DNA from: Holophagaceae bacterium
Lineage (GTDB): Bacteria; Acidobacteriota; Holophagae; Holophagales; Holophagaceae
Length of the DNA: 34,394 bases
Assembly (NCBI GenBank): GCA_025357545.1
Contig: JANXPB010000067.1
Coordinates: 1-34,394 of the forward strand
Direction of reading: 5' to 3'
The position numbers and the translations under genes were made by a program. Each line of letters opens with the position of its first letter. Within the stretch, counting starts at the first letter, position 1. Shown here piece after piece: positions 317-33,520 of this stretch. Below the pieces are notes generated by a model. It was given only the letters and a program-made list of their open reading frames with translations. It had not been told where the DNA came from and ran no database searches.

Positions 317-790
317 CTACTTCGCGGAAACCTCAACTGTGAAAGTAAAGCGCTCGGCCGGTTCAGCATCCTTTTCGAAGGGTCGTTTGAGCACGAATTT
401 CAAGGTGCTGGATCCCTCCTGCAGGGCTTTGTAATAAAACACGGTCGTTTCCGTGGCGCCGGGCATTTGTTTGGGGGCGGCTTCATGGACGGGCTTGCCG
501 TGGGGTTGGAACCGTTTCGGGTCAGGGTTTTCCAAGGTCCATGAATAGCCAGTGCCAGGGTTCCCTTCCAGGCGAACGGCTAGGTGGCCACCCTTGGCCA
601 TATGAAGGGTCGCATCATGGTCCTTCTTGCTCACGGTCAACACTTTGCTCACCTTGGCGGCTCTGGGCGGGTGGGAGGGCGCATCAGGTCGCGCAAGGGC
701 TGCGACAACCCGGGCGTCCGCCGCCGTCGCGGACATCAGGAGAGCGCCAAACAGGTAGATCAGCTGGGTGGAATTGCGTTGGGTCCACAT
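317..790 (-). CDS. Chagasin-like (I42) secreted cysteine protease inhibitor
   Basis: A 157-residue exported protein of the I42 family, whose members block papain-type cysteine proteases by inserting three loops into the active-site cleft. Residues 9-27 form a signal peptide (hydrophobic stretch ending in ATAADA). The family's first inhibitory loop is visible as NPGTGYSW at residues 77-84 (consensus NP-T-T-G-Y/F-x-W), and the third loop as KRPF at 135-138 (family R-P-W/F). The length fits a single-domain member with an added linker of about 25 residues after the signal peptide. The ATG at 790 has a strong GAGGAGG seven bases upstream. It lies 125 bp downstream of a papain-family protease on the same strand, so an inhibitor paired with its own protease is the natural reading. 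The family call rests on the motifs; the partner is inferred from position. Confidence 0.85.
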   Translation of the reverse strand: MWTQRNSTQLIYLFGALLMSATAADARVVAALARPDAPSHPPRAAKVSKVLTVSKKDHDATLHMAKGGHLAVRLEGNPGTGYSWTLENPDPKRFQPHGKPVHEAAPKQMPGATETTVFYYKALQEGSSTLKFVLKRPFEKDAEPAERFTFTVEVSAK

Positions 791-915: not shown

Positions 916-2028
916 TCAATAAGAGCCGTGCTTCGCCTGGACCCATGCCGAGGCGTAACCGATGTTGTTGCTGTTGTATGAGATCCACATGTAGCCCTTT
1001 TCGGCGCCATAGCCACAGGTGTCGCCCCAGGAGGTGCCCCAAGAATTCCGCATCAGCCAGGCCTGCTTGGTGTCATCCCATCCAATGAGCACTACGGCGT
1101 GGTTGATTCCGTGGGTCGTGTCGTGTTCGTTGAACACACCACCGACATAATGTTGGAACGCGGAAGTGGCATAGACCGCGACGGCAACCGATCCATGGGT
1201 GCAGATAGCCTGTTTGATCTGGGCGACGGTGGGGATTCCACCGGAGGGGCCCACGAACCCCCAAGCCACGGCCTTATTTGGTGAAGGCAGCCCGGTCCAG
1301 GCGGGTTTCATGGAGGCCATGTCGTTGTGTTGGTAGGGGCAAGCGGTCTCGGGGGCCACACCATGGCTGATCATCCAATTGAAGACCGGCATGTACCAAC
1401 CGCCCCCGCAGCTGCCCGCACCGGCGCAGGTGAGGATCTGTTGTTCGGAGAGGTCGACGTTGGTCCCGTTCACCATGCGATTGCTGATCTCCCAGGCCCC
1501 CACGGCCGCGAAGTCCCAGCAACTGCCACAGGCGGACTGGTCCCGGATGGGGGTGACCTTGCCGGCCGCCCGCTCGTCCCATTTGCTGGCGGAAGCGCTG
1601 CATGTGGGCCGGATGATGAATTTGAAATGCGGGTTGAGCTTGACGAACTCCGCGCGTTTGACGTCATACATGCGGATTTGATCAAGGCTCTTGGCATTCA
1701 CCTCGGTGGCGATCTGGGCGAGGTTCGCGGGAATGACCGTGCCGCAAAGTTGTTTCAGGTCCTTCTCGGCTGCAGCGGTATAGCCAACGCTGAACGTGAA
1801 TTTCTGAGCCACGATATTGGCCCGCAGTTCGGATAGCTGGACTTTGGCCGCGGCGGGGGCGGCCGCTTCCCGGTGCTGATAATCCGGATGGAGCTGGGCG
1901 ATCATCTTTTGGTTCGTTGCAGCATCCAGCGAGACCTTTTTTTGGTCGAACTTCTGGGCGAAAGCGGGGCCAGCGCAGAGTACCGCTAGCATCAACGCGC
2001 AGGCCCTGGGATTAGTGCCTCGTAACAT
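916..2028 (-). CDS. Secreted papain-family (C1) cysteine protease
   Basis: A 370-residue exported thiol protease. Residues 8-24 form a signal peptide (cleavage likely after FAQ or near it). About 115 residues of propeptide-like sequence follow, and the mature C1A domain spans about 150-365. All catalytic positions are visible: the oxyanion Gln164 in RDQSACGSCW, nucleophile Cys170 (spacing Q-x5-C as in papain), His310 in INHAVVLIGWD, and Asn328 in RNSWGTSWG. It should therefore be an active endopeptidase, made as a zymogen and acting in the periplasm or outside the cell. The start has GGAGGT upstream (ATG at 2028). It is followed on the same strand by a chagasin-like inhibitor, which would protect the cell from stray activity. 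The closest alternative, a bleomycin-hydrolase type C1B enzyme, does not fit the length or the exported N-terminus. Confidence 0.93.
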   Translation of the reverse strand: MLRGTNPRACALMLAVLCAGPAFAQKFDQKKVSLDAATNQKMIAQLHPDYQHREAAAPAAAKVQLSELRANIVAQKFTFSVGYTAAAEKDLKQLCGTVIPANLAQIATEVNAKSLDQIRMYDVKRAEFVKLNPHFKFIIRPTCSASASKWDERAAGKVTPIRDQSACGSCWDFAAVGAWEISNRMVNGTNVDLSEQQILTCAGAGSCGGGWYMPVFNWMISHGVAPETACPYQHNDMASMKPAWTGLPSPNKAVAWGFVGPSGGIPTVAQIKQAICTHGSVAVAVYATSAFQHYVGGVFNEHDTTHGINHAVVLIGWDDTKQAWLMRNSWGTSWGDTCGYGAEKGYMWISYNSNNIGYASAWVQAKHGSY

Positions 2029-2460: not shown

Positions 2461-3117
2461 ATGCGCTCACTCCCCTTTATGCCGTCCATGGCGATACTGC
2501 TTTTGGCCCTGCCTTGCGCGAGCCGCGCTCCGGCCCAAGCGGCCCCGAAGGCGCCAGAGTCGGACTGCTTGACCGAGAATGCCAATCTCAAAAACAAGAT
2601 GCAGTTCTTCGTGTGCCTCAATGCCAAACGCGAGTACTGCCAGGATCAACTGCTGAAGCTCCAGACAGAATGCCCACCGGGTTCGGTCAAATACAGTGGC
2701 GCCTACAACAAGTACCTGGCCGTGAAAAACAAGGCCAATCAACTTTTGGACATGGTGGTCGCGGAACTGAAATACCACGACAAGACTCCGCCCGAGAAAT
2801 TCAAGCAGCTCATGAAGGAGGTCAGCGACAGTACCCAGGAATTCGACCGCTACGTGCTTGGTACGACCTGTGAAGGCGCCAGCAACCGCTTCCTTCCGCT
2901 CCTGATTCCGATCATCACCGCGGCTTTGTTGGACCGCAGCCGCACGTTGCTGGACGGTTGGCTCTCAGGAAACCAGAACATGAAGGAACAGCGCGCGGCT
3001 GAACTGGCTTCGCAGCGGTGGAGGTCCCCGAATGAATTCGGCGCTCCAGCCCCGGTAGTCCCAGTCCCCGTGGTCGCGCCGGCCACGGATCCTGCGTCAC
3101 CGCCATCAGGGCAGTGA
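2461..3117 (+). CDS. Small exported protein of unknown function, five cysteines in mature part
   Basis: A 218-residue protein that I do not recognise. It begins with a clear signal peptide (residues 1-27, with LLLALPCA as the core). The mature part has five cysteines at about residues 38, 53, 61, 72 and 140, enough for two disulfides in the periplasm. Residues 75-135 are Lys/Glu-rich and helical in character. A hydrophobic patch (FLPLLIPIITAALL, about 146-159) is followed by a Pro/Val/Ala-rich tail that looks disordered. The ATG at 2461 is supported by TTGGAGGA just upstream. The stop lies 26 bp before the start of the caspase-like gene, so the two are probably one transcript with coupled translation. 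That suggests a role with the caspase-like protein, but nothing in the sequence shows what that role is. Confidence 0.75.
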   Translation: MRSLPFMPSMAILLLALPCASRAPAQAAPKAPESDCLTENANLKNKMQFFVCLNAKREYCQDQLLKLQTECPPGSVKYSGAYNKYLAVKNKANQLLDMVVAELKYHDKTPPEKFKQLMKEVSDSTQEFDRYVLGTTCEGASNRFLPLLIPIITAALLDRSRTLLDGWLSGNQNMKEQRAAELASQRWRSPNEFGAPAPVVPVPVVAPATDPASPPSGQ

Positions 3118-3143
3118 ACTTGATGGTGACGAGGAATTGCAAC

Positions 3144-6100
3144 ATGAAGTGGAAACGAACCATGGGTGAACTTCGCTCCAGCAGGAACGGTTTCCTTGCC
3201 CAAGTTTTCGGACTCGGGCTCCTTCTGGGCCAGGTGCTGAATGCTCAAGAGCTGTTGAAGTCTGCGGCCCCGGTGATGGTGTTTGAAGGGGCCGAGGCCA
3301 TCCTGAAGGTCGCGGTGTCCGATGATGGGAATTCGGGCTTGATTTTCCGGCAGGACGGCAGCCTTAGGACTGTGGATTTCCGGAGCGGCCGGACCACGAA
3401 AAAATGGGGGCAAGTGCCGGACCGCATCATGGCCATGGCCCTCGCGAACGCTGACGCTGAAACCTCGCGGGTGGTCATTATCGCAACTGAACGGGCTCTT
3501 TGGTCTAGCGACCTGGATGGCGCTGATGCCTTCCAAAAGGTTTGGGAGACCAAAGCCAGCATTTATGGCGTCAGTCTAGCGCCCAACCGGGAGCTAGCAG
3601 CGGTAGCCACTTCGGAAGGTTGTTTCGTTTTGAATCTCCAGACGGGAGCCAAAGTCTTCTCCACCAGTGAAGCAGACTGTCCCGTGGCCCTCTTCTCACC
3701 TGATGGGATGGCCCTGGCCATCGGCCTGGGCAAGCAGGTGCGGATCTATGAAGCCGCGCGCTTCACTCAGCAGCAAGCCTGGCCCATGGACTTCTCACCA
3801 CATACGTTGGCCTACGCGGCCAACTCCCGGTTCATTGCCGTGGGCGGCGATCGCGAGACCATCGTGGTCAAGGAAACTGCGGAAGGCAGGACGATCAAGA
3901 CCCTGAAACTCGATGCCGCCGCCCAGGATGGAGCGGTAGTGTGTTTCGCGGGTGACACGACGGGGCTGTTTGTGGGTTCCGACCATCGACTTGTCGTCTT
4001 TTCGGGCCTCGACAAGGAAAAATCACCAGCGAAAACCATCAAGACCAAGGATAGGATTCTGTTCCTGGCTTTTTCAAGAGCTTCAGCGTCGCTCTTCGCG
4101 GTGACGGAGGGGAGCCGGTCCCTTGGTCAATGGGGCGTTGCCCTGCCCAAACCTTTGACGGGAACTCTCGCCGGCACCCAACTTCGCAATCCCGCTGCGG
4201 CCCCTCCCGCCCTTACTGTGTTAAGCCCGACCGCAGCGACCCAGGTCAAGAATGGGACCCTTCAGCTCACGTTCAAAGTGAGCTCCTCTGTGGACCTTCC
4301 GGTTGCCAGAGTCAGGGTTCTGGTGGACGGCCGACCCGCGCGGATCACAGTGGCCACACCGACCACCGCAGCGACTGCCCCTCCCGTTGAAGGCGCGATC
4401 ACCGGCCCTTTTGTGAATGGTCAGGAATACACCTACCAGGTGGCTTGGGCCGATCGGGATGCCACCTTGCTGGTCCAGTCGGAGAGCCGCGCGGCCACCA
4501 GCGTCCCGGTGGTGGTGAAGCTCCGGGAGAACGAGCTTGCCCGAACGCAGCCCAAACTCACAACCAAGGTGGCACCTCCAACTCTCACTTTGACGATGGC
4601 TGCCCGGAGCGAGACTCCGTTGAATTCAGCAGTCACGGAGCCGATGGTGGAGCTCCTGGTGCGCGTCCACAGCTTCCCGGACCAGCCGGTGCTGCAACTG
4701 AAGATTCTTGTGGACGGCAGACCCGTCTCAGCCAGTGGAATGCCCGAAGCCAGCGCGGCGCCCTTCAATCCTGTCGTGGGGTACATCAGCGGGGAAAACT
4801 ACAAAATTCCGGTCCATCTGCCCCGAAGGGACAGCACCGTGGCGGTCATCGCTCAAACTGCCTATGCCGATAGTGAAACCGCGGTGGCCAAACTCGGGTG
4901 GAAGTCCCAGGCGGCCTCGGTTTCCCCATCGACCACCCGCCTGATGGAACCACCGACCGCGGAACTCCCGGCTTCAGGCGTCAATCCTGGCACCAGTGAC
5001 GGCGAGGGCTTGAGGTCGGAGGAAGCGCCGCTGATTCGGAAAGCGGATGGAACTCGCGACAGTGATGCGACCCGGATCCTGGACGGCCCCCGGCAGAGCC
5101 AATCCGTACCCTTGGAGGTAGATGCCAATGGTCGGTTGCGTTGGCAGAGCCCGAAGCATGATGGCAAGTCAAAACCAACGTCGCGGCAACCCGGGGAAAG
5201 CGCTCCCATCGGCGTTCAGATCCTGTCTCCAGCCAGTGGCGTCACAAGCAAAGAAAAGGAAATCCTGCTCACCGTGAAAGTGGGATCGACGCCCGGTCAT
5301 GACATCAGCAAGCTCCAAGTATTGGTGGAGGGGATTCCGGTTGATGTGGTTCCCACCACCTTGAGCGGTTCGGCCTTGAGCGGTCCTCCGGTGAATGGGC
5401 AGGTCCTCAAATACCGCCTGATATTGCCTCCCCAGGATTGTCAGATCACCGTGTTGGCCGAGAGTGCCGCCAGCCATAGCAAACCCGCGACCATCCGCAT
5501 TCTTCGCGGCGGGAAAGCGGCTCCTGCCGGTGTGGCCAAAACTTCCGGTGCATTCAGCTCGAACGGGTCTGTGGGCAGAATGGCGAAGCCGCTCGTCACC
5601 ATTACGGATCCCCCGCAAGATTCGGTGGTCAAGGGGAACACGGTCCGTGTGGGTGTGCGAGTCAGCGTTCAGCCGGGCCAGGCGGCCCCGGTTGTCCGGA
5701 TTCTGGTGGACGCGCAGGATGCCAAAGCGGACCGGGCTCCGGCGATACCAAGCGCTCCCGGCGCCCCCCTTCCGGCCGCCGATCGGGGCGCCGTGGAGGA
5801 AATCCAGTATTTCACCGTCGCCATTCCGAGCAAGGACTGCACCTTGATGGCCTACGCTGAAACGCCCTATGCGACCAGCGATCCAGCCCTGCTGAAACTG
5901 CGGTGGGATCGGTCGGGGTTGTCCAACCCTTCAACTGGACTGCCCACGCTCTATCTCCTTGCGGTGGGCGTGAGCAAGTACAAGGACAAAAGCTATTCCC
6001 TAACCTATCCGGCCAAGGATGCCCGCGATTTTGCGGATGCCATGAAGGCCCAGAAGGGCAAACTCTACAAAGATGTGGTGATGAAAATTCATACGGATGA

Positions 6101-6686
6101 AGCCGCTACGCGGGACAACGTCATGGACGACCTGGAATGGATCCAACGGCAGGCCACCCAGCAGGACATGGTCATCGTATTCTTCGCGGGCCACGGCATC
6201 AACGACACGGTCACTGGGAATTATTACTTCCTGCCCCACGACGCCAACCTGGAGGCGGTCAAACGCACCATGATCCCAGGATCGGAAATCCACTCCACCC
6301 TGGCGCGGCTGACGGGCACCCGCCTGCTGTTCATGGACACCTGCCATGCGGGAAACATCACGGGAACAGCGGTTCGCGGAGTCCCCGACATGCGGCAGTT
6401 CCTTCAGGATTTGAAGGACGGCGGGCAGGGCTTGGTGGTCATCACCTCTTCCCGGCCGGGGCAGAAATCCCAGGAGCATCCATCCTGGAAGAACGGAGCC
6501 TTCACCAAGGCCTTGGTGGAAGGCCTGAAAGGCAAGGCCCAACGGGACAAACAGGGCTTTGTGACCTTCACGGCGCTGGATGCCTACATCACGCAGAGGG
6601 TGAAGGAATTGACCAACGGCACCCAGGCCCCAACCACCCAAAAGGGCACCGAGGTCTCAGATTTCCCGCTGGCCTTGGTCGATTAG
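3144..6686 (+). CDS. Exported beta-propeller / Ig-like repeat / caspase-like (C14) protein
   Basis: A protein of about 1180 residues. I chose the ATG at 3144 because GAGGA lies upstream and the N-terminus then reads as a signal peptide (residues 1-34, core FGLGLLLGQVL). Residues 40-345 resemble a WD40-type beta-propeller with repeated blocks such as SPDGMALAIG. Four repeats of about 100 residues follow (roughly 355-458, 480-587, 688-790, 815-921), each with an 'xVLVDGxP' strand in the middle, 'G...NGQ.Y' and a final strand; these look Ig/fibronectin-like. The last 245 residues are a caspase-fold domain: His1017 in FFAGHG and Cys1067 in MDTCHAGN make the catalytic dyad. In this family, cleavage is usually after basic or acidic residues, but specificity cannot be read here. 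It lies between the small Cys protein and the FHA-Lon gene. An envelope location is inferred from the signal peptide. Confidence 0.88.
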   Translation: MKWKRTMGELRSSRNGFLAQVFGLGLLLGQVLNAQELLKSAAPVMVFEGAEAILKVAVSDDGNSGLIFRQDGSLRTVDFRSGRTTKKWGQVPDRIMAMALANADAETSRVVIIATERALWSSDLDGADAFQKVWETKASIYGVSLAPNRELAAVATSEGCFVLNLQTGAKVFSTSEADCPVALFSPDGMALAIGLGKQVRIYEAARFTQQQAWPMDFSPHTLAYAANSRFIAVGGDRETIVVKETAEGRTIKTLKLDAAAQDGAVVCFAGDTTGLFVGSDHRLVVFSGLDKEKSPAKTIKTKDRILFLAFSRASASLFAVTEGSRSLGQWGVALPKPLTGTLAGTQLRNPAAAPPALTVLSPTAATQVKNGTLQLTFKVSSSVDLPVARVRVLVDGRPARITVATPTTAATAPPVEGAITGPFVNGQEYTYQVAWADRDATLLVQSESRAATSVPVVVKLRENELARTQPKLTTKVAPPTLTLTMAARSETPLNSAVTEPMVELLVRVHSFPDQPVLQLKILVDGRPVSASGMPEASAAPFNPVVGYISGENYKIPVHLPRRDSTVAVIAQTAYADSETAVAKLGWKSQAASVSPSTTRLMEPPTAELPASGVNPGTSDGEGLRSEEAPLIRKADGTRDSDATRILDGPRQSQSVPLEVDANGRLRWQSPKHDGKSKPTSRQPGESAPIGVQILSPASGVTSKEKEILLTVKVGSTPGHDISKLQVLVEGIPVDVVPTTLSGSALSGPPVNGQVLKYRLILPPQDCQITVLAESAASHSKPATIRILRGGKAAPAGVAKTSGAFSSNGSVGRMAKPLVTITDPPQDSVVKGNTVRVGVRVSVQPGQAAPVVRILVDAQDAKADRAPAIPSAPGAPLPAADRGAVEEIQYFTVAIPSKDCTLMAYAETPYATSDPALLKLRWDRSGLSNPSTGLPTLYLLAVGVSKYKDKSYSLTYPAKDARDFADAMKAQKGKLYKDVVMKIHTDEAATRDNVMDDLEWIQRQATQQDMVIVFFAGHGINDTVTGNYYFLPHDANLEAVKRTMIPGSEIHSTLARLTGTRLLFMDTCHAGNITGTAVRGVPDMRQFLQDLKDGGQGLVVITSSRPGQKSQEHPSWKNGAFTKALVEGLKGKAQRDKQGFVTFTALDAYITQRVKELTNGTQAPTTQKGTEVSDFPLALVD

Positions 6687-6907
6687 CGGACGCGGTTGGA
6701 TAACCAGGATTTTTGCCTGTTCCGCATCGGCTTCAGAGGTCGGCTGCAGGCCGACGCGATGGGTGGTGCTCAGCGCAAGGGCTAAGCGAGTTACGGCCCT
6801 TCTGTCGGCTGAAGGCCAATGCCGCCCGTGGTAACCTTTGCGAAATTCAGGTCCACCTCTGGTGGTAGTTATGATGCGGAGAGACTATCTTTTTCCCTGA
6901 TTCCTTC
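6687..6907. repeat. Intergenic stretch with two GTCGGCTG-AGGCC repeats
   Basis: The 221-bp gap holds two direct copies of a 16-base motif, at 6740-6755 and 6804-6819, matching at 14 of 16 positions. The first copy is part of a perfect hairpin, GTCGGC-TGCAG-GCCGAC at 6740-6756. The second lies inside a looser hairpin flanked by GGCC and AAGGCC. A related core, CGGCTGAAGGC, occurs in reverse orientation near 31859-31869, within another non-coding repeat region. This looks like a REP-type dispersed palindrome that may also slow transcription between the caspase-like and FHA-Lon genes. Confidence 0.5.
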
Positions 6908-9604
6908 GTGATCCTTATCCACGCGCCGGGCTTGGCGCCGCAACGGCTTGAGATCTCCCAGGACCGTACGGTGATCGGGCGGGTGGCTGGGGATATCGTG
7001 CTGCCCGACCCGCTCTGCTCACTAACCCACGCTGAAATTCTGTTTGATGGCAAATCAGTCCGGCTGAAGGACCTTGGCAGCACCAACGGCACCTTCCAGA
7101 ACGGCCAGCGCGTGACCGATCTGGTCTGGAAACTGGGATCGAGCATCCAGATCGGGGGCCACCGGCTGGAGTTCAAAGAGATTCTTCCGGCCTCCGTGGG
7201 GCCTGGTGGCACGATCGTAGCCGCCAACATCGAGGCGCTCAGCGCATTGCCTGTCCAGTTCTATGTCCTGGTCATCTACCCCCCGGACCAAGCTCCCCTT
7301 ACGCAGAAATTTTTCCAGGCCCGATCGGTGGTGGGGCGAAAAGAGGGCGACATCGTGTTGGCGGACCATGGGTGCTCCTCCACCCATGCGGAAATCCTTT
7401 TTGATGGCAGCACCGTGCAAGTCAGGGATCTGGGCAGCACCAATGGCACCTGGTGCAATGGCGAGCGCATCACCGAAATGCTGTGGGCCCCTGGGGTCAC
7501 GCTCAAAATCGGCGCCCACAAGCTGGAGTTGAAGGAAATCCATGCGGCAGCGGCGCCCAAGGTTGGCGCACCGATCCTCAACGACCCCGGTCTTGGGGGC
7601 CCACAGGACCCTCCTAAGCCCGCATCCACCGGGAGACCCCCGAAGAGTCTGTTGGTGGCCGGCGCCGTCCTCGCCCTCGGCGTCCTCGGATTGGGCGGTT
7701 GGCTGCTGGCGCGGGTGCTCGGGTTTGAATTGGGAGGGGGCGCAGACTCTCGACCCCAGCTTTCCGAATCCAGAGAAGCCACGGTGCAGTTTGTCTGGTT
7801 CGCGGGACAGGCGGGCCCCACTGCCACCGGAGGGGTCGCTCCCGCACGCATTCGCGTGGGCCCGAACAAGACCGGCACAGTATCCGTCGGAGTTTCCGAG
7901 GAATTCGCCGGCGGGGGCGGCAACCAGTGGCGCACGGCCATCTGGCTTGCGGCCTTCAACGCCACCCGGGCGGTGGGGGCCTCCCTCGCGGATTACGAAT
8001 TCAATGTCCATGTGGGCGGGCATACGGATGGGCCTTCGGCCGGCATGCTGACCACATCGGCCATGTTGGCCCTTCTGCGGGGCAGGGAGATTAGGCCGGA
8101 CACCACCATGACCGGCACCATCAACCCCGATGGCACCGCCGGCCCCGTGGGTGGGATTGTTCAAAAGATGGAAGCTGCCAAACAGGCTGGCCTCAAGCGT
8201 TTCGGCTTTCCCATCGGATGCCGCAACCACAAGGATCTGAAAACGGGCCAGGACGTGGACCTCATCGAGGTTGGCCGGCGCCTGGGGCTGGAAGTCAAAG
8301 AGATTGGGGACCTCAACGAGGGCTATGAGTTCCTGACCCATGACAAGCTGCCCCGCATCGAACCTATCGCCGAAGCGGAAATGGAGCCCGGTCCACAGAC
8401 GCAACTCCAGTTGCGGGCCAAGCTCCAGGTCTGGAAATCGCGCATTGAAAGAAAAGCCTCAGAACTAAAAAAGGAAGCCAAGGCCTCGGGAGTTCCGCCC
8501 CAGGTCTATGGGCCCTTGCTGGCCGAGGCCGACAAGGCCTATGAGGCCGCTAAGCGGGACGAGCGGAATGGTTTCCTCATCTCGGCGCTCCAGGGCTACG
8601 TCCAGACCGCGCTCTCGTATTCGGTGGCCACCCGGGTGACGACAGCCTACGCCTTCATGATCAAAGGCGATGAATCCGGCCTCATTGAATCCATCCAATC
8701 CGGCTCGGAGATCAAAGGTGAGATTGATGCCTTGGGTCAGGAAATGGAAATCAAGACCCAAGCCAAAACCCGTGGCGGGCAACTGAACACCACCTATGCC
8801 TTCACGACTTACGTCAAGGCCCGGGCCTCGGCCCTGATCGCTGATGATTTCCTGGCGGCCTCCATTAGTCTTCTGAAGGACATCCAGGGACGGAAACTCC
8901 TGCTTAGACAGGAGAGCCTAGGCACGCTCATGACGCGCATCACCCTCCCCATGCGGTTCTACGAAATGTCCAAGGTCTATCTCGAATTCGCCAAGGATCT
9001 TCAGGACTTGATGACCGAGGAGGGCGACACCAAGCCCCTCAGTGCACGGTTCGTGGATCGCTCGTCGACTTGCTATGCCTCTGGAGCAGCCGCGGTCCTG
9101 GCCTATTTCGATGCGCTCATCACGGAGGAGGCGGCGAAGGTCAAGGGGCTTTCCCTCGAGGAGGCCCAGGCCCAAATCGCCACCCGGGAGATGGATTATT
9201 TCCTGGCGCGCAAAGCGAAGGCGCTGTCGGAATACACCGGTAAAAACGGAATGAACGAAGGTGTGAAACTCATGCGCCTGGCAGCGGCCAGCTCTGCCTT
9301 GCTCGATGGCGCCAAGCTCGTGAATAAATGGTATTCACTCGGTGGGAGCTATGACGCCAATGGTGGCGTGGTCCTGGAAAATCGCCGGGCCCTCACCGCC
9401 CAGCTGGAACTGGCCCGGCGCAACGCCAGGGAAGCGGCGGCCCGGGCCAAAGATGCCGTGGGGTTCGTCCCCACGCCGGCGCGGCTGGCTTACCAGGTGG
9501 CCGGCGCCCGCCGGGAGGGCAATGACAGCGAAAAGCTGACGGCCCTGGCTTCCTATTGGCAGGCCACCTTCTGGAGCGAATTGGCGATTTCCTCGAGCAA
9601 GTAG
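6908..9604 (+). CDS. Membrane protein with two FHA domains and a Lon-type (S16) protease domain
   Basis: An 898-residue protein. FHA domain 1 is at about 1-92 and FHA domain 2 at about 118-212; each shows G-R near the start, a THAEI block and GSTNGT, the residues that bind phosphothreonine peptides. A Pro/Gly linker leads to one transmembrane segment at about 247-270 (LLVAGAVLALGVLGLGGWLL). Residues 290-470 form a Lon-type proteolytic domain: Ser377 in DGPSAG and Lys420 in GGIVQK are 43 residues apart, the same spacing as the Ser679/Lys722 dyad of E. coli Lon. There is no AAA+ ATPase module. The C-terminal 400 residues are largely helical and unrecognised. The start is a GTG at 6908 without a good ribosome binding site; no in-frame ATG lies between it and the upstream stop at 6872. 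The predicted topology puts FHA inside and the protease outside the inner membrane, as in YlbL-type PDZ-Lon proteins. Confidence 0.9.
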   Translation: MILIHAPGLAPQRLEISQDRTVIGRVAGDIVLPDPLCSLTHAEILFDGKSVRLKDLGSTNGTFQNGQRVTDLVWKLGSSIQIGGHRLEFKEILPASVGPGGTIVAANIEALSALPVQFYVLVIYPPDQAPLTQKFFQARSVVGRKEGDIVLADHGCSSTHAEILFDGSTVQVRDLGSTNGTWCNGERITEMLWAPGVTLKIGAHKLELKEIHAAAAPKVGAPILNDPGLGGPQDPPKPASTGRPPKSLLVAGAVLALGVLGLGGWLLARVLGFELGGGADSRPQLSESREATVQFVWFAGQAGPTATGGVAPARIRVGPNKTGTVSVGVSEEFAGGGGNQWRTAIWLAAFNATRAVGASLADYEFNVHVGGHTDGPSAGMLTTSAMLALLRGREIRPDTTMTGTINPDGTAGPVGGIVQKMEAAKQAGLKRFGFPIGCRNHKDLKTGQDVDLIEVGRRLGLEVKEIGDLNEGYEFLTHDKLPRIEPIAEAEMEPGPQTQLQLRAKLQVWKSRIERKASELKKEAKASGVPPQVYGPLLAEADKAYEAAKRDERNGFLISALQGYVQTALSYSVATRVTTAYAFMIKGDESGLIESIQSGSEIKGEIDALGQEMEIKTQAKTRGGQLNTTYAFTTYVKARASALIADDFLAASISLLKDIQGRKLLLRQESLGTLMTRITLPMRFYEMSKVYLEFAKDLQDLMTEEGDTKPLSARFVDRSSTCYASGAAAVLAYFDALITEEAAKVKGLSLEEAQAQIATREMDYFLARKAKALSEYTGKNGMNEGVKLMRLAAASSALLDGAKLVNKWYSLGGSYDANGGVVLENRRALTAQLELARRNAREAAARAKDAVGFVPTPARLAYQVAGARREGNDSEKLTALASYWQATFWSELAISSSK

Positions 9605-17105: not shown

Positions 17106-18842
17106 TCAGACCAGCGCCAGCAGGCCCAACAGGTAAAAACTCAATTCCACACTCAGCTCGAAGCGGGGCTTACCGGTGGTGAAGCGCTCGTGGTAGTACC
17201 ACAGGTAGAGCAACGGGTAGGCCGCGCCAACGGTCAGGACGCTGGACACCAACAGTGGATGCAGGGAGGTGAAGGGTCCCGCGAAGGTGAACCAGAGCGA
17301 GCCCGCCAGGCCCAGGGCCAACAGTGCGATGAGCACCAGCTTCGCCTTGGGCTTCCCCAGCAGGATGGGGAGGGTCTCCTTGCCCAGGACCTGGTCGTTC
17401 TGCATATCGCGGATGTCGTAGATCACGGTGCGGGCGAACACCAGCACCGTCACCAGTCCCAGTGCCGCCAGGGCCTTCGCGTCCCAGGTCCAGGGCCAGA
17501 TGGAGCGGCCATGCTGCCAGACGGGCACGGCGATGGCGACGACCCCCAGGGCCATGGCCACCAGCACGTCTTTGGAACCCGGAATGGAGCGCAGGCTCCA
17601 GCGCTGGCCGCCGAGAGGGACCTCCACTTTGTACATGAGGCCCAGCAGGCTGGCGCCGAGGACCACCAGCAATGGGCGCAGGCCGAAGGAGGCCGCCGTG
17701 GCGAGAGCAATGGCGAGGGCCAGCAGGGCCGTGGCCATCAGGATGCGGCGGTTGCGTTCCAGGAAGCGTGCCCGGCCCGGGCCCTTGGCCCCCAGCCCCA
17801 TGGGGTCGAGGTAGGGAGTCAGGAGATACATGGCCAGCAGGTAGGAGGCTGTGATCAGGGGGTAGCGCCAGCTGAGCCCCAGCCCCATCCAAGCATGCAC
17901 CCCGAGGGTCATGAGGCCGGCGCCGACGGCCATGAGCAGGGGGGTGCCGAAGGCCGCGAACATGAAGCGGGTGAAGCGGCTCGGCGCGTCCCCCAACTGC
18001 TCCATGGTGTCCACCACTTCGTCCACCAGCCAGGTGGGAGTCGAAGCCCCGGCCAGCACGCCGACGGTCTCGTTCCCTTTAAACTGGGTCAGGTCCAATT
18101 CCGCGGCGGTTTCGATGTACTGCACGGGCTTACCATAGGTGCGCGCCAGCTCCGCGAGATGCTTGGTGTTGCTGGAGGCTTTGCCGCCCACGACAATGAC
18201 GTAGTCCACGGTCTGGGCCAAGTGCTGGGCCTCGTCCTGGCGCATCCAGGTGTCTTCGCAGATGGTGTTTTCCAGGATGCAATCCTCGGCGCGGGCCCGG
18301 ATGTATTCGCTGATCTCGCCGTAGTCCTTCACCGTGAAAGTGGTCTGGGCCACCACCAGCACCTTTTTCAGTTCTTCGGGGCTCAGTTCCATGGCTTCGC
18401 CCAGGTTGGCGACGATCTTGGAGCCGTGTTCGGCGAAACTGCGGTGGGCCACGCTTTCCGCATGGCCGTGGCTGCCTAGGATCACGGTGAAATAGCCTTT
18501 GGGGCTCCACTTCTTGATCTTGTTATGGACCTTGGCGACTTCGGGGCAGGTGGCGTTGACGATGTGGATCTCGCCGGCCTTCTGGCGCTCTTTCAGGCCC
18601 CGCAGGTCCTGGATGGGAATGCCATGGGCCCGGATGACGACGGTGCCGTTCTTCACCTGGTCAGGGGATTCCGCCACCGCCACGCCGCGCTTGCCGATGA
18701 GTTCCAGGGCCTGGGGGTTGTGGATGATGGGGCCGAGGGTCTGCACGTTCTTCTGGCCGCTGTTGGACGCTTCCAGAACTGCATCCATGGCGCGCTTGAC
18801 ACCCCAGCAGAATCCAGCGGTTTTTGCGACGATGACCTTCAT
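17106..18842 (-). CDS. ispH: IspH (HMBPP reductase) fused to a UbiA-like membrane domain
   Basis: A 578-residue fusion. Residues 1-285 are complete IspH, the last enzyme of the MEP pathway, which makes IPP and DMAPP from HMBPP with a 4Fe-4S cluster. Cluster cysteines are Cys12, Cys99 and Cys195; His41, His73, His127 and Glu129 match the E. coli substrate-binding set. Residues 290-578 have about eight transmembrane helices and resemble UbiA prenyltransferases: the second Asp motif YDIRDMQND (476-483) and the GxxTLP block are clear, but the first N-D-x-x-D motif is not, with only LDPMGLGAKG in that place. The start at 18842 puts Cys12 where E. coli has it, with AAGG upstream. A second ATG at 18863 has GGAGG upstream and is also possible. 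It is followed closely by resB and ccsA. Confidence 0.9.
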   Translation of the reverse strand: MKVIVAKTAGFCWGVKRAMDAVLEASNSGQKNVQTLGPIIHNPQALELIGKRGVAVAESPDQVKNGTVVIRAHGIPIQDLRGLKERQKAGEIHIVNATCPEVAKVHNKIKKWSPKGYFTVILGSHGHAESVAHRSFAEHGSKIVANLGEAMELSPEELKKVLVVAQTTFTVKDYGEISEYIRARAEDCILENTICEDTWMRQDEAQHLAQTVDYVIVVGGKASSNTKHLAELARTYGKPVQYIETAAELDLTQFKGNETVGVLAGASTPTWLVDEVVDTMEQLGDAPSRFTRFMFAAFGTPLLMAVGAGLMTLGVHAWMGLGLSWRYPLITASYLLAMYLLTPYLDPMGLGAKGPGRARFLERNRRILMATALLALAIALATAASFGLRPLLVVLGASLLGLMYKVEVPLGGQRWSLRSIPGSKDVLVAMALGVVAIAVPVWQHGRSIWPWTWDAKALAALGLVTVLVFARTVIYDIRDMQNDQVLGKETLPILLGKPKAKLVLIALLALGLAGSLWFTFAGPFTSLHPLLVSSVLTVGAAYPLLYLWYYHERFTTGKPRFELSVELSFYLLGLLALV

Positions 18843-18908
18843 CCAGGACCTTTCTCGACCCATTCCGTCGGACCTCCCAGAATACCGCCAAACTGCCCGG
18901 CCTGCCGC

Positions 18909-32272: not shown

Positions 32273-33520
32273 ATGAAGGCAGTTGCGTTTGGATTGACAC
32301 TTTTGTTGGCAGTCTGCCTCGGCACCAGTTCCGCGGCGCCCTTGCCGCCTTCGCAGGACATCAACCTCACCGCGTTCGCGAATGGCGCGCTGCGCGAGAG
32401 TGTGAGTTCCGAATATGGGGGCAGTTGGCAGGCGCGCTGGATCACGGATGAGAATCCGAAAACCGGCTGGGCGACCGAGAAAGGCGCTGTGGGGCCTTTC
32501 AGCATTGTGATCTCGTTGCCGGAGCGTTCCGAATTCCACTCGCTGGAGTTCGACACCGCTTCCGTGGACGGTGACGGCGGGCGGCGTGGCGCCAAGGACA
32601 TCGACGTGCTGGTGTCCGATACGTCGGCGACCGCAGGCTTCACCCCGTTGACGAGCGTCGCGCTCAAGCCCGGCAAGGACAGGCAACATTTCAATCTCAC
32701 CAAACCCGGCGCAGGCCGCTGGATCAAGCTGGTCTTCAAGAGCAACAACGGCGATCCAGAGTACACCGAACTGATGGAGTTCCGCGCGTTCGGCACGCAG
32801 CTCACGCAGACGTCGCTGCCGGCGAATCTTTCGGGCACCTACAGCAGCGACCTCTACGGCAGCTTCCATCTGCAACAGGACGGTGCGCGGCTCAACGGTT
32901 GCTACGAACACGACAGCGGGCTGATCCAGGGCGGGCTGGAAGCGCACCTCATGCGACTGACATGGCAACAGGGGCAACAAGCCGAAGGCAAGAAAACGGG
33001 CCCGGCCATCATGGTGCTCAAGCGGGATGGCAAGAGCTTCGAGGGTTGGTGGGCGGGCGATAACAGCAATGAATGGAACGCCGACTGGGATCTCAAGAAG
33101 GTCAGCGACACGGTCGGCTCCTGTCCCAACTGGAACCCCAGGAGCGCGAGCGGAAACATCGTCGCGACCCAGCTTGCCGCTGGCGAACACGCGCGCATGT
33201 ATGGCATCAACTTCGATCTCGACAGCGATCACCTGCGCGTGGACGCGAAGCCCGCCATCGATGAATTGCTGCAAGCGCTCAAGGCCAATCCGACGTGGCA
33301 TGTCAGCATCGAGGGGCATACGGATGCCACTGGCGACGCAGCGCACAACCTCGATCTCAGCAAGCGGCGCGCCGTTTCGGTGAAAGCTGCCCTGGTAGCT
33401 GCCGGAATCGCGGCGGATCGCCTAGCGGCGACTGGCTTGGGACAAACCAAGCCGGTGGCGTCGAACGATACGGGAATCGGACGCGCGCAGAACCGCCGCG
33501 TGGAGGCCGTGAAGCTGTAG
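32273..33520 (+). CDS. Exported discoidin-like / OmpA fusion protein
   Basis: A 415-residue exported protein. Residues 1-22 are a signal peptide (LTLLLAVCLGTSSAA). Residues 30-175 resemble an F5/8-type-C (discoidin-like) carbohydrate-binding domain: 'WITDENPKTGWATEKG' near the start and 'GRWIKLVFKSNNGD' and 'ELMEFRAFG' near the end. A middle segment (about 183-280) is rich in strands and aromatic residues (LSGTYSSDLYGSFHLQQDG, FEGWWAGDNSNEW). The C-terminal 110 residues are an OmpA-type peptidoglycan-binding domain: 'EGHTDATGD', 'NLDLSKRRA' and 'GLGQTKPVASNDT'. It may tether a surface binding module to the cell wall. It has AGGGGTG before the ATG. Its base and codon use look somewhat different from the neighbours and it is flanked by a repeat element and a gene relic, so recent arrival is possible. 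Confidence 0.85.
   Translation: MKAVAFGLTLLLAVCLGTSSAAPLPPSQDINLTAFANGALRESVSSEYGGSWQARWITDENPKTGWATEKGAVGPFSIVISLPERSEFHSLEFDTASVDGDGGRRGAKDIDVLVSDTSATAGFTPLTSVALKPGKDRQHFNLTKPGAGRWIKLVFKSNNGDPEYTELMEFRAFGTQLTQTSLPANLSGTYSSDLYGSFHLQQDGARLNGCYEHDSGLIQGGLEAHLMRLTWQQGQQAEGKKTGPAIMVLKRDGKSFEGWWAGDNSNEWNADWDLKKVSDTVGSCPNWNPRSASGNIVATQLAAGEHARMYGINFDLDSDHLRVDAKPAIDELLQALKANPTWHVSIEGHTDATGDAAHNLDLSKRRAVSVKAALVAAGIAADRLAATGLGQTKPVASNDTGIGRAQNRRVEAVKL

Follow-up and report, generated by a model that had tools for sequence, protein, structure and literature searches.

The described proteins that come closest to the one analysed here are the YlbL/SepM (DdcP-type) proteases, which have one N-terminal helix and a Ser/Lys S16 domain without an AAA+ module, and act outside the cytoplasm (PMC6051672). 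YlbL is anchored in the membrane and acts on the cell-division inhibitor YneA; its Ser/Lys dyad is needed for function, and the protein purified without its membrane helix is inactive in vitro (PMC6051672). CalpL, the protease of the CRISPR-Lon (Lon-SAVED) system, likewise pairs a Lon domain that lacks AAA+ with a sensing module, in this case a SAVED domain that binds a nucleotide messenger, and it has a dedicated protein substrate (PMC9704534). LonA and LonB have the same S16 fold and Ser-x42-Lys dyad, together with an AAA+ module. A different kind of resemblance is offered by the YscD/PrgH-type proteins of type III secretion, in which an FHA-like cytoplasmic domain is followed by one helix and a periplasmic part made of ring-building modules. 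The bacterial WD40-caspases (orthocaspases), which combine C14 and WD40 domains, are relevant to the genetic neighbourhood.

The protein described here, FHA-Lon, is encoded by a lake bacterium of the family Holophagaceae (Acidobacteriota). The DNA analysed, called the window below, is a stretch of 34,394 nucleotides, and the features of interest are collected in Table 1.

Table 1. Features of the FHA-Lon locus, with coordinates as positions in the window and residues numbered within each protein.
Feature	Coordinates	Strand	Remarks
Chagasin-type (I42) cysteine-protease inhibitor	317..790	-	flanks some copies
Papain-family (C1A) protease, signal peptide	916..2028	-	divergent, flanks some copies, not all
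ORF218, operon partner, secreted helical 218-aa protein	2461..3117	+	4-nt overlap with caspase start
Secreted WD40/C14 caspase, operon partner	3114..6686	+	signal peptide, WD40 propeller, Ig-like repeats, H1027/C1077
FHA-FHA-TM-Lon-helical protein (FHA-Lon), 898 aa	6908..9604	+	GTG start; true start maybe ~7 codons upstream
FHA domain 1, residues 2-90	6911..7177	+	pThr-site residues R25, S38, H41, N60
FHA domain 2, residues 117-211	7256..7540	+	pThr-site residues R144, S157, H160, N179
Single transmembrane helix, about residues 248-270	7649..7717	+	hydropathy and model; N-terminus inside by charge bias
Lon-type (S16) peptidase domain, about residues 287-480	7766..8347	+	Ser377 8036-8038, Lys420 8165-8167
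All-helical C-terminal domain, residues 481-898	8348..9601	+	co-inherited with Lon domain

The initial annotation placed two FHA domains, a membrane helix and a Lon-type domain in one open reading frame, and on this the coordinates, Pfam and Foldseek agree. It also compared the protein with YlbL. This comparison is apt as a functional likeness but not as a statement of family membership: YlbL/SepM has a PDZ domain and neither FHA nor a helical C-terminal domain, whereas FHA-Lon is the reverse, with no PDZ match in Pfam and a score of only 24.8 bits against the SepM-type model NF041438, for which the cut-off is 200. FHA-Lon would thus be expected to function most like YlbL/SepM without being a member of that group. 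It differs from CalpL in that its sensor is FHA and lies across the membrane, and no match to SAVED or CARF was found in it with Pfam or PADLOC. Unlike LonA and LonB it lacks the AAA+ module: the absence of an ATPase, noted at the outset, is confirmed by the lack of any AAA match in Pfam and by a Lon equivalog score far under the cut-offs. The YscD-type model PF16697 matches the protein at 85.7 bits, but here the predicted periplasmic part is a Lon peptidase with a helical domain, and no type III secretion genes were recognised in the window. In the open-access papers searched we found no description of this architecture. Within what was searchable, the new elements are the joining of FHA to Lon and a helical domain that lies outside the libraries searched, while an S16 protease without ATPase acting outside the cytoplasm is of a kind already known.

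Several lines of evidence exclude a chance open reading frame or a frame artefact. The GC content by codon position (0.64/0.47/0.75) is that expected for coding DNA, the frame is kept end to end in an alignment of five full-length orthologs at 83-61% identity, and Pfam and Foldseek both give matches, those in Pfam being confined to PF00498, PF05362 and the FHA-like YscD model. A truncated ATP-dependent Lon was likewise excluded, because an architecture conserved end to end stands where the AAA+ part would be, and because the host genome has two separate full-length Lon protease genes elsewhere. There is some doubt about the GTG at 6908 as the true start, since the frame is conserved about 7 codons upstream of it in L027 (PDSF/YV), where the codon aligned to the GTG is GTA. 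The stretch 6875-6908 has no in-frame ATG, GTG or TTG, and an ATC codon in it follows a GGAG-like site; a non-standard start codon is therefore possible.

The FHA domains are clear. PF00498 matches in two stretches (E=1.5e-29, 102.6 bits against a cut-off of 20.7), the two sets of phosphothreonine-site residues in Table 1 are invariant across the five aligned full-length orthologs, and Foldseek matches the domains to GarA/FhaA with TMt up to 0.90, all in agreement with the FHA fold originally assigned to residues 1-212. In the full-length AlphaFold2 model they have a pLDDT of about 75-90. The two domains are 53% identical, and have therefore arisen by tandem duplication. From its residues the pair would be expected to bind phosphothreonine, and with 37 matches to Pkinase in the host genome, ligands are likely to be available.

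For the Lon-type domain, Pfam gives a match to Lon_C PF05362 over residues 373-445 (E=6.5e-12, 45.9 bits against the curated cut-off of 21.1), and the modelled region matches the proteolytic domain of E. coli Lon in Foldseek with TMt about 0.70-0.72. Ser377 and Lys420 are 43 residues apart (Ser-x42-Lys), and in a profile alignment to solved Lon domains the GPSAG serine and GG..K lysine motifs are in register; the intact dyad with this spacing, as first proposed, is borne out. No misplaced Ser/Lys pair was seen in the model, in which the Lon region is too poorly modelled for a Ser-Lys distance. Among 23 family members from two phyla, the dyad Ser is kept in 21, the Lys in 22, and Asp374 and Gly403 in all 23, and the active-site loops rank among the most conserved stretches. 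On these residues FHA-Lon is probably an active protease. Two divergent Lon-helical lipoproteins, L093 and L094, have no catalytic Ser (DEMGSQ and D-ATAS in place of DGPSAG), and are possible pseudo-proteases; the genome of L093 (G453) also carries an intact copy, L086.

The remaining 420 or so residues have no meaningful match in Pfam, NCBIfam or PDB sequences, the sole PDB sequence match being to a short segment within a designed minibinder. The full-length AlphaFold2 model was built from ten sequences and has a mean pLDDT of 68; confidence for the Lon region is moderate, and the C-terminus is all-helical, as in the first reading, which had left a helical C-terminus of about 400 residues without assignment. 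Modelled separately, the C-terminal domain has a pTM of 0.75. Comparison of its fold with the PDB gave nothing convincing (best E=0.32), and on these sequence and fold searches a known fold was rejected. Since only ten sequences lie behind the model, the statement about the fold is provisional.

A single hydrophobic segment is found, at 248-266 by hydropathy, and the AlphaFold2 model has a helix at 249-270, in good accord with the helix earlier placed at 247-270. In 10 of the 11 FHA-branch members the net charge is +2 to +5 before the helix and -2 to +1 after it; the exception is L034, for which hydropathy set the segment too far towards the N-terminus. This bias indicates that the N-terminus lies inside. 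In addition, the Lon domain is expected outside the cytoplasm because its homologs in Myxococcota (described below) are secreted. Two lines thus support a Lon domain that is predicted to lie outside the cytoplasm with FHA inside, as in the original proposal of opposite sides of the membrane. A lipobox-like Cys (LGAC, LGTC, LGGC or similar) lies within the membrane helix of 8 of the 11 FHA-branch members, and is absent from the window protein's own helix. This suggests, without amounting to proof, that the membrane helix of the FHA branch may derive from a lipoprotein signal peptide. Taken together, the FHA-FHA-TM-Lon architecture, its family and its predicted topology are well supported.

A search of 60 relatives gave four genomes with full-length orthologs and a fifth with a fragment cut off at a contig end. 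A scan of GTDB contigs then gave nine loci in Holophagaceae and one, L043, in Polyangiaceae (Myxococcota). A search of the class of L043 found proteins with Lon and helical parts in about 35 further genomes. In the closest of these, L076 (G696), with 844 residues, a linker joins a single FHA domain to a membrane helix, beyond which come Lon and the helical part. FHA is missing from the remaining Myxococcota members examined, which start with a short hydrophobic signal and, in most cases, a lipobox-like Cys after it, as in L086 (MRRSLLPLVLIVSLFWLTGCPS). The non-FHA form is thus a secreted, mostly lipoprotein-like protein of ~650-700 residues found in Myxococcota. The Lon and helical parts are always inherited jointly and align end to end, in the window protein as in the others, and judged on this joint inheritance they are one family, a point absent from the initial annotation. 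The helical domain was found in 22 of 379 sampled Myxococcota genomes and in 5 of 396 sampled from Acidobacteriota, all five of them Holophagaceae.

In a maximum-likelihood tree of 39 rows, the FHA-bearing rows are all grouped in a single clade (100/100), which includes two Polyangia rows with N-termini cut by contig ends, and with a midpoint root Holophagaceae are nested inside the Polyangia rows. With this rooting, the tree supports a single FHA fusion, which would have occurred in a myxococcal lineage and been followed by transfer to Holophagaceae. It appears that in one branch FHA and a membrane helix took the place of the lipoprotein signal, and that FHA was duplicated in Holophagaceae. 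As far as these comparisons of sequence go, the FHA domains were acquired late and are specific to this lineage, which had been missed. Binning contamination is an unlikely source of the cross-phylum similarity, because the L043 contig has 67-74% GC throughout, with other coding frames adjoining, and L076 sits on a 90-kb contig among ordinary genes.

A mobile element was rejected on the results of plasmid and phage searches: on plasmids the Lon-helical query gave matches to the Lon domain only and none over most of its length, and the phage search gave one weak match, to the caspase only. The genes beside the Myxococcota lipoprotein forms resemble xerD, scpA/scpB and rib, which suggests that the lipoprotein-form gene holds a long-standing chromosomal position in Polyangia; no caspase was among the neighbour genes seen. 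In the Polyangia loci L078-L092, the lipoprotein form is often beside genes like xerD, M50/rhomboid proteases, scpA, scpB and rluB, as judged by sequence and clustering.

In Holophagaceae the setting is different. The gene order ORF218, caspase, FHA-Lon is found in every locus with enough upstream DNA except L041, and by gene order this is a conserved operon with a predicted secreted caspase, which the initial annotation had not recognised. The His and Cys of the caspase are intact (FFAGHG, DTCHAG). It has the C14 and WD40 domains of the orthocaspases, but is secreted and coupled in an operon to a membrane FHA-Lon protease and to ORF218. Against the model for the EACC1-associated caspase system (NF047832) it scores 86.6 bits, below the cut-off of 140. 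Of the nine genomes with FHA-Lon among 77 Holophagaceae searched, eight carry the operon, and full-length ORF218 is present in eight of the 77, all eight of which have a caspase ortholog and FHA-Lon. Were the nine FHA-Lon genomes placed at random, such a co-occurrence would have a probability of 4e-10, a value that is indicative only, given linkage and shared descent, and the co-occurrence over eight genomes may reflect linkage within one family.

It is of interest that in three further genomes (G017, G1026 and G1027), in which FHA-Lon was not seen, a domain like ORF218 is fused in frame to a WD40-caspase (about 25% identity, E about 1e-9), which is evidence of a functional link between ORF218 and the caspase. 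Secreted proteins of this type (ORF218-like/WD40/C14, about 1100-1180 aa) are encoded at L162:1753-5304, L163:2567-6106 and L166:5755-9048, the ORF218-like domain being matched by search in L162 and L163 and by eye in L166. All three fusion genes adjoin further caspase genes, and FecR- and CHASE2-like genes, recognised by eye, are adjacent in L166 and L164. The papain-family protease and chagasin-type inhibitor occur as a pair again in L035 and L039; the protease is found alone in L031, and in L036 beyond the FHA-Lon gene. ExbD/TonB genes were excluded as members of the unit, since in L027 and L034 they lie about 3.7 kb downstream with another gene directly following FHA-Lon. Elsewhere in the window, 17106-18863 on the minus strand encodes a 585-aa protein in which IspH (LytB, PF02401) is fused with a UbiA-type prenyltransferase domain (PF01040), and 32273-33520 on the plus strand encodes a secreted-looking protein with a discoidin/SUN-like domain linked to an OmpA domain. 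The search for the caspase was negative in three genomes, those of L040, of the Polyangiaceae copy L043 and of the basal copy L041, although these are MAGs and its absence is uncertain; FHA-Lon therefore probably has a role without the caspase.

On the basis of these observations we hypothesise, tentatively and at somewhat less than an even chance, that FHA-Lon is a periplasmic Lon-type protease, gated by phosphorylation, whose targets are envelope proteins and plausibly include its operon partners. The FHA pair in the cytoplasm would bind phosphothreonine on a partner, either a Hanks-type kinase or a kinase substrate, and this binding would recruit or cluster FHA-Lon within the membrane. In known Lon proteases the S16 domains act in oligomeric form, and clustering could therefore activate the protease outside. 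The clustered S16 domains would assemble in the periplasm and cut envelope substrates, which the helical domain may hold for them. In Holophagaceae the likeliest substrates or partners would be the co-encoded secreted caspase and ORF218, and there may be another, older envelope substrate besides these. That clustering does the gating, and which protein is cut, are both inferences. Several of the observations above count against this reading: the caspase was not found with L041, L040 or L043, the Myxococcota forms have housekeeping-like neighbours, L093 and L094 lack the catalytic Ser, confidence in the modelled Lon region is moderate, and YlbL purified without its helix showed no activity in vitro (PMC6051672). 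A more specific version, which we consider doubtful, is an inside-out cascade, in which Ser/Thr phosphorylation would act through FHA and the transmembrane Lon protease to activate the secreted caspase, and the protein would have originated by FHA fusion upstream of a lipoprotein signal peptide, which thereby became the membrane helix, and would then have crossed between phyla.

Other explanations need to be weighed against this gated protease. The FHA pair could be a localisation device only, holding a constitutive periplasmic quality-control protease at a kinase-marked site such as a division or secretion complex, with the caspase as a passenger. The relatives in Myxococcota fit this well, being plain lipoproteins without FHA among housekeeping-like neighbours, as do the three genomes in which the caspase was not found and the example of YlbL, a comparable membrane-anchored S16 protease that acts on YneA (PMC6051672). 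However, a helix alone would be enough for anchoring, and the strict retention of the phosphothreonine-site residues together with the duplication of FHA suggests binding that goes beyond it; the operon, moreover, is kept in eight of the nine genomes. We regard localisation alone as possible but rather unlikely. It is distinctly improbable that the S16 domain is a scaffold for the helical domain, with its dyad kept for autoprocessing or by history. The loss of the catalytic Ser in L093 and L094 would be explained in this way, and the helical C-terminus is, like the Lon domain, strongly conserved in the FHA branch, but a scaffold does not account for the near-complete retention of Ser and Lys or for the conservation of the active-site loops.

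Finally, the operon could be a defence or programmed-death module, in which a signal read by FHA would lead the Lon protease to free an envelope caspase and the cell would be killed or lysed, following a logic like that of CRISPR-Lon (CalpL) and caspase effectors. The distribution is indeed patchy (9 of 77 Holophagaceae genomes), the caspase has a weak PADLOC match, and ORF218-like domains are fused with caspases elsewhere. Against this, PADLOC gives no match for FHA-Lon or ORF218, Pfam finds no SAVED, CARF, TIR or NACHT in the three operon genes, the plasmid and phage searches gave no mobile copy of the unit beyond the matches noted above, and the Myxococcota homologs lie in chromosomal housekeeping neighbourhoods. 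We consider a defence function very improbable.

A family of secreted Lon-type proteases emerges from these results, its members sharing a helical domain that is absent from Pfam. One branch is tied to a secreted caspase, and little is known about how enzymes of that class are activated in bacteria. Many bacteria have large numbers of Hanks-type kinases, but there is limited understanding of how the signals of these kinases are transmitted outward across the membrane. With phosphothreonine read on the inside and proteolysis on the outside, a single chain of this kind would make the question directly testable.
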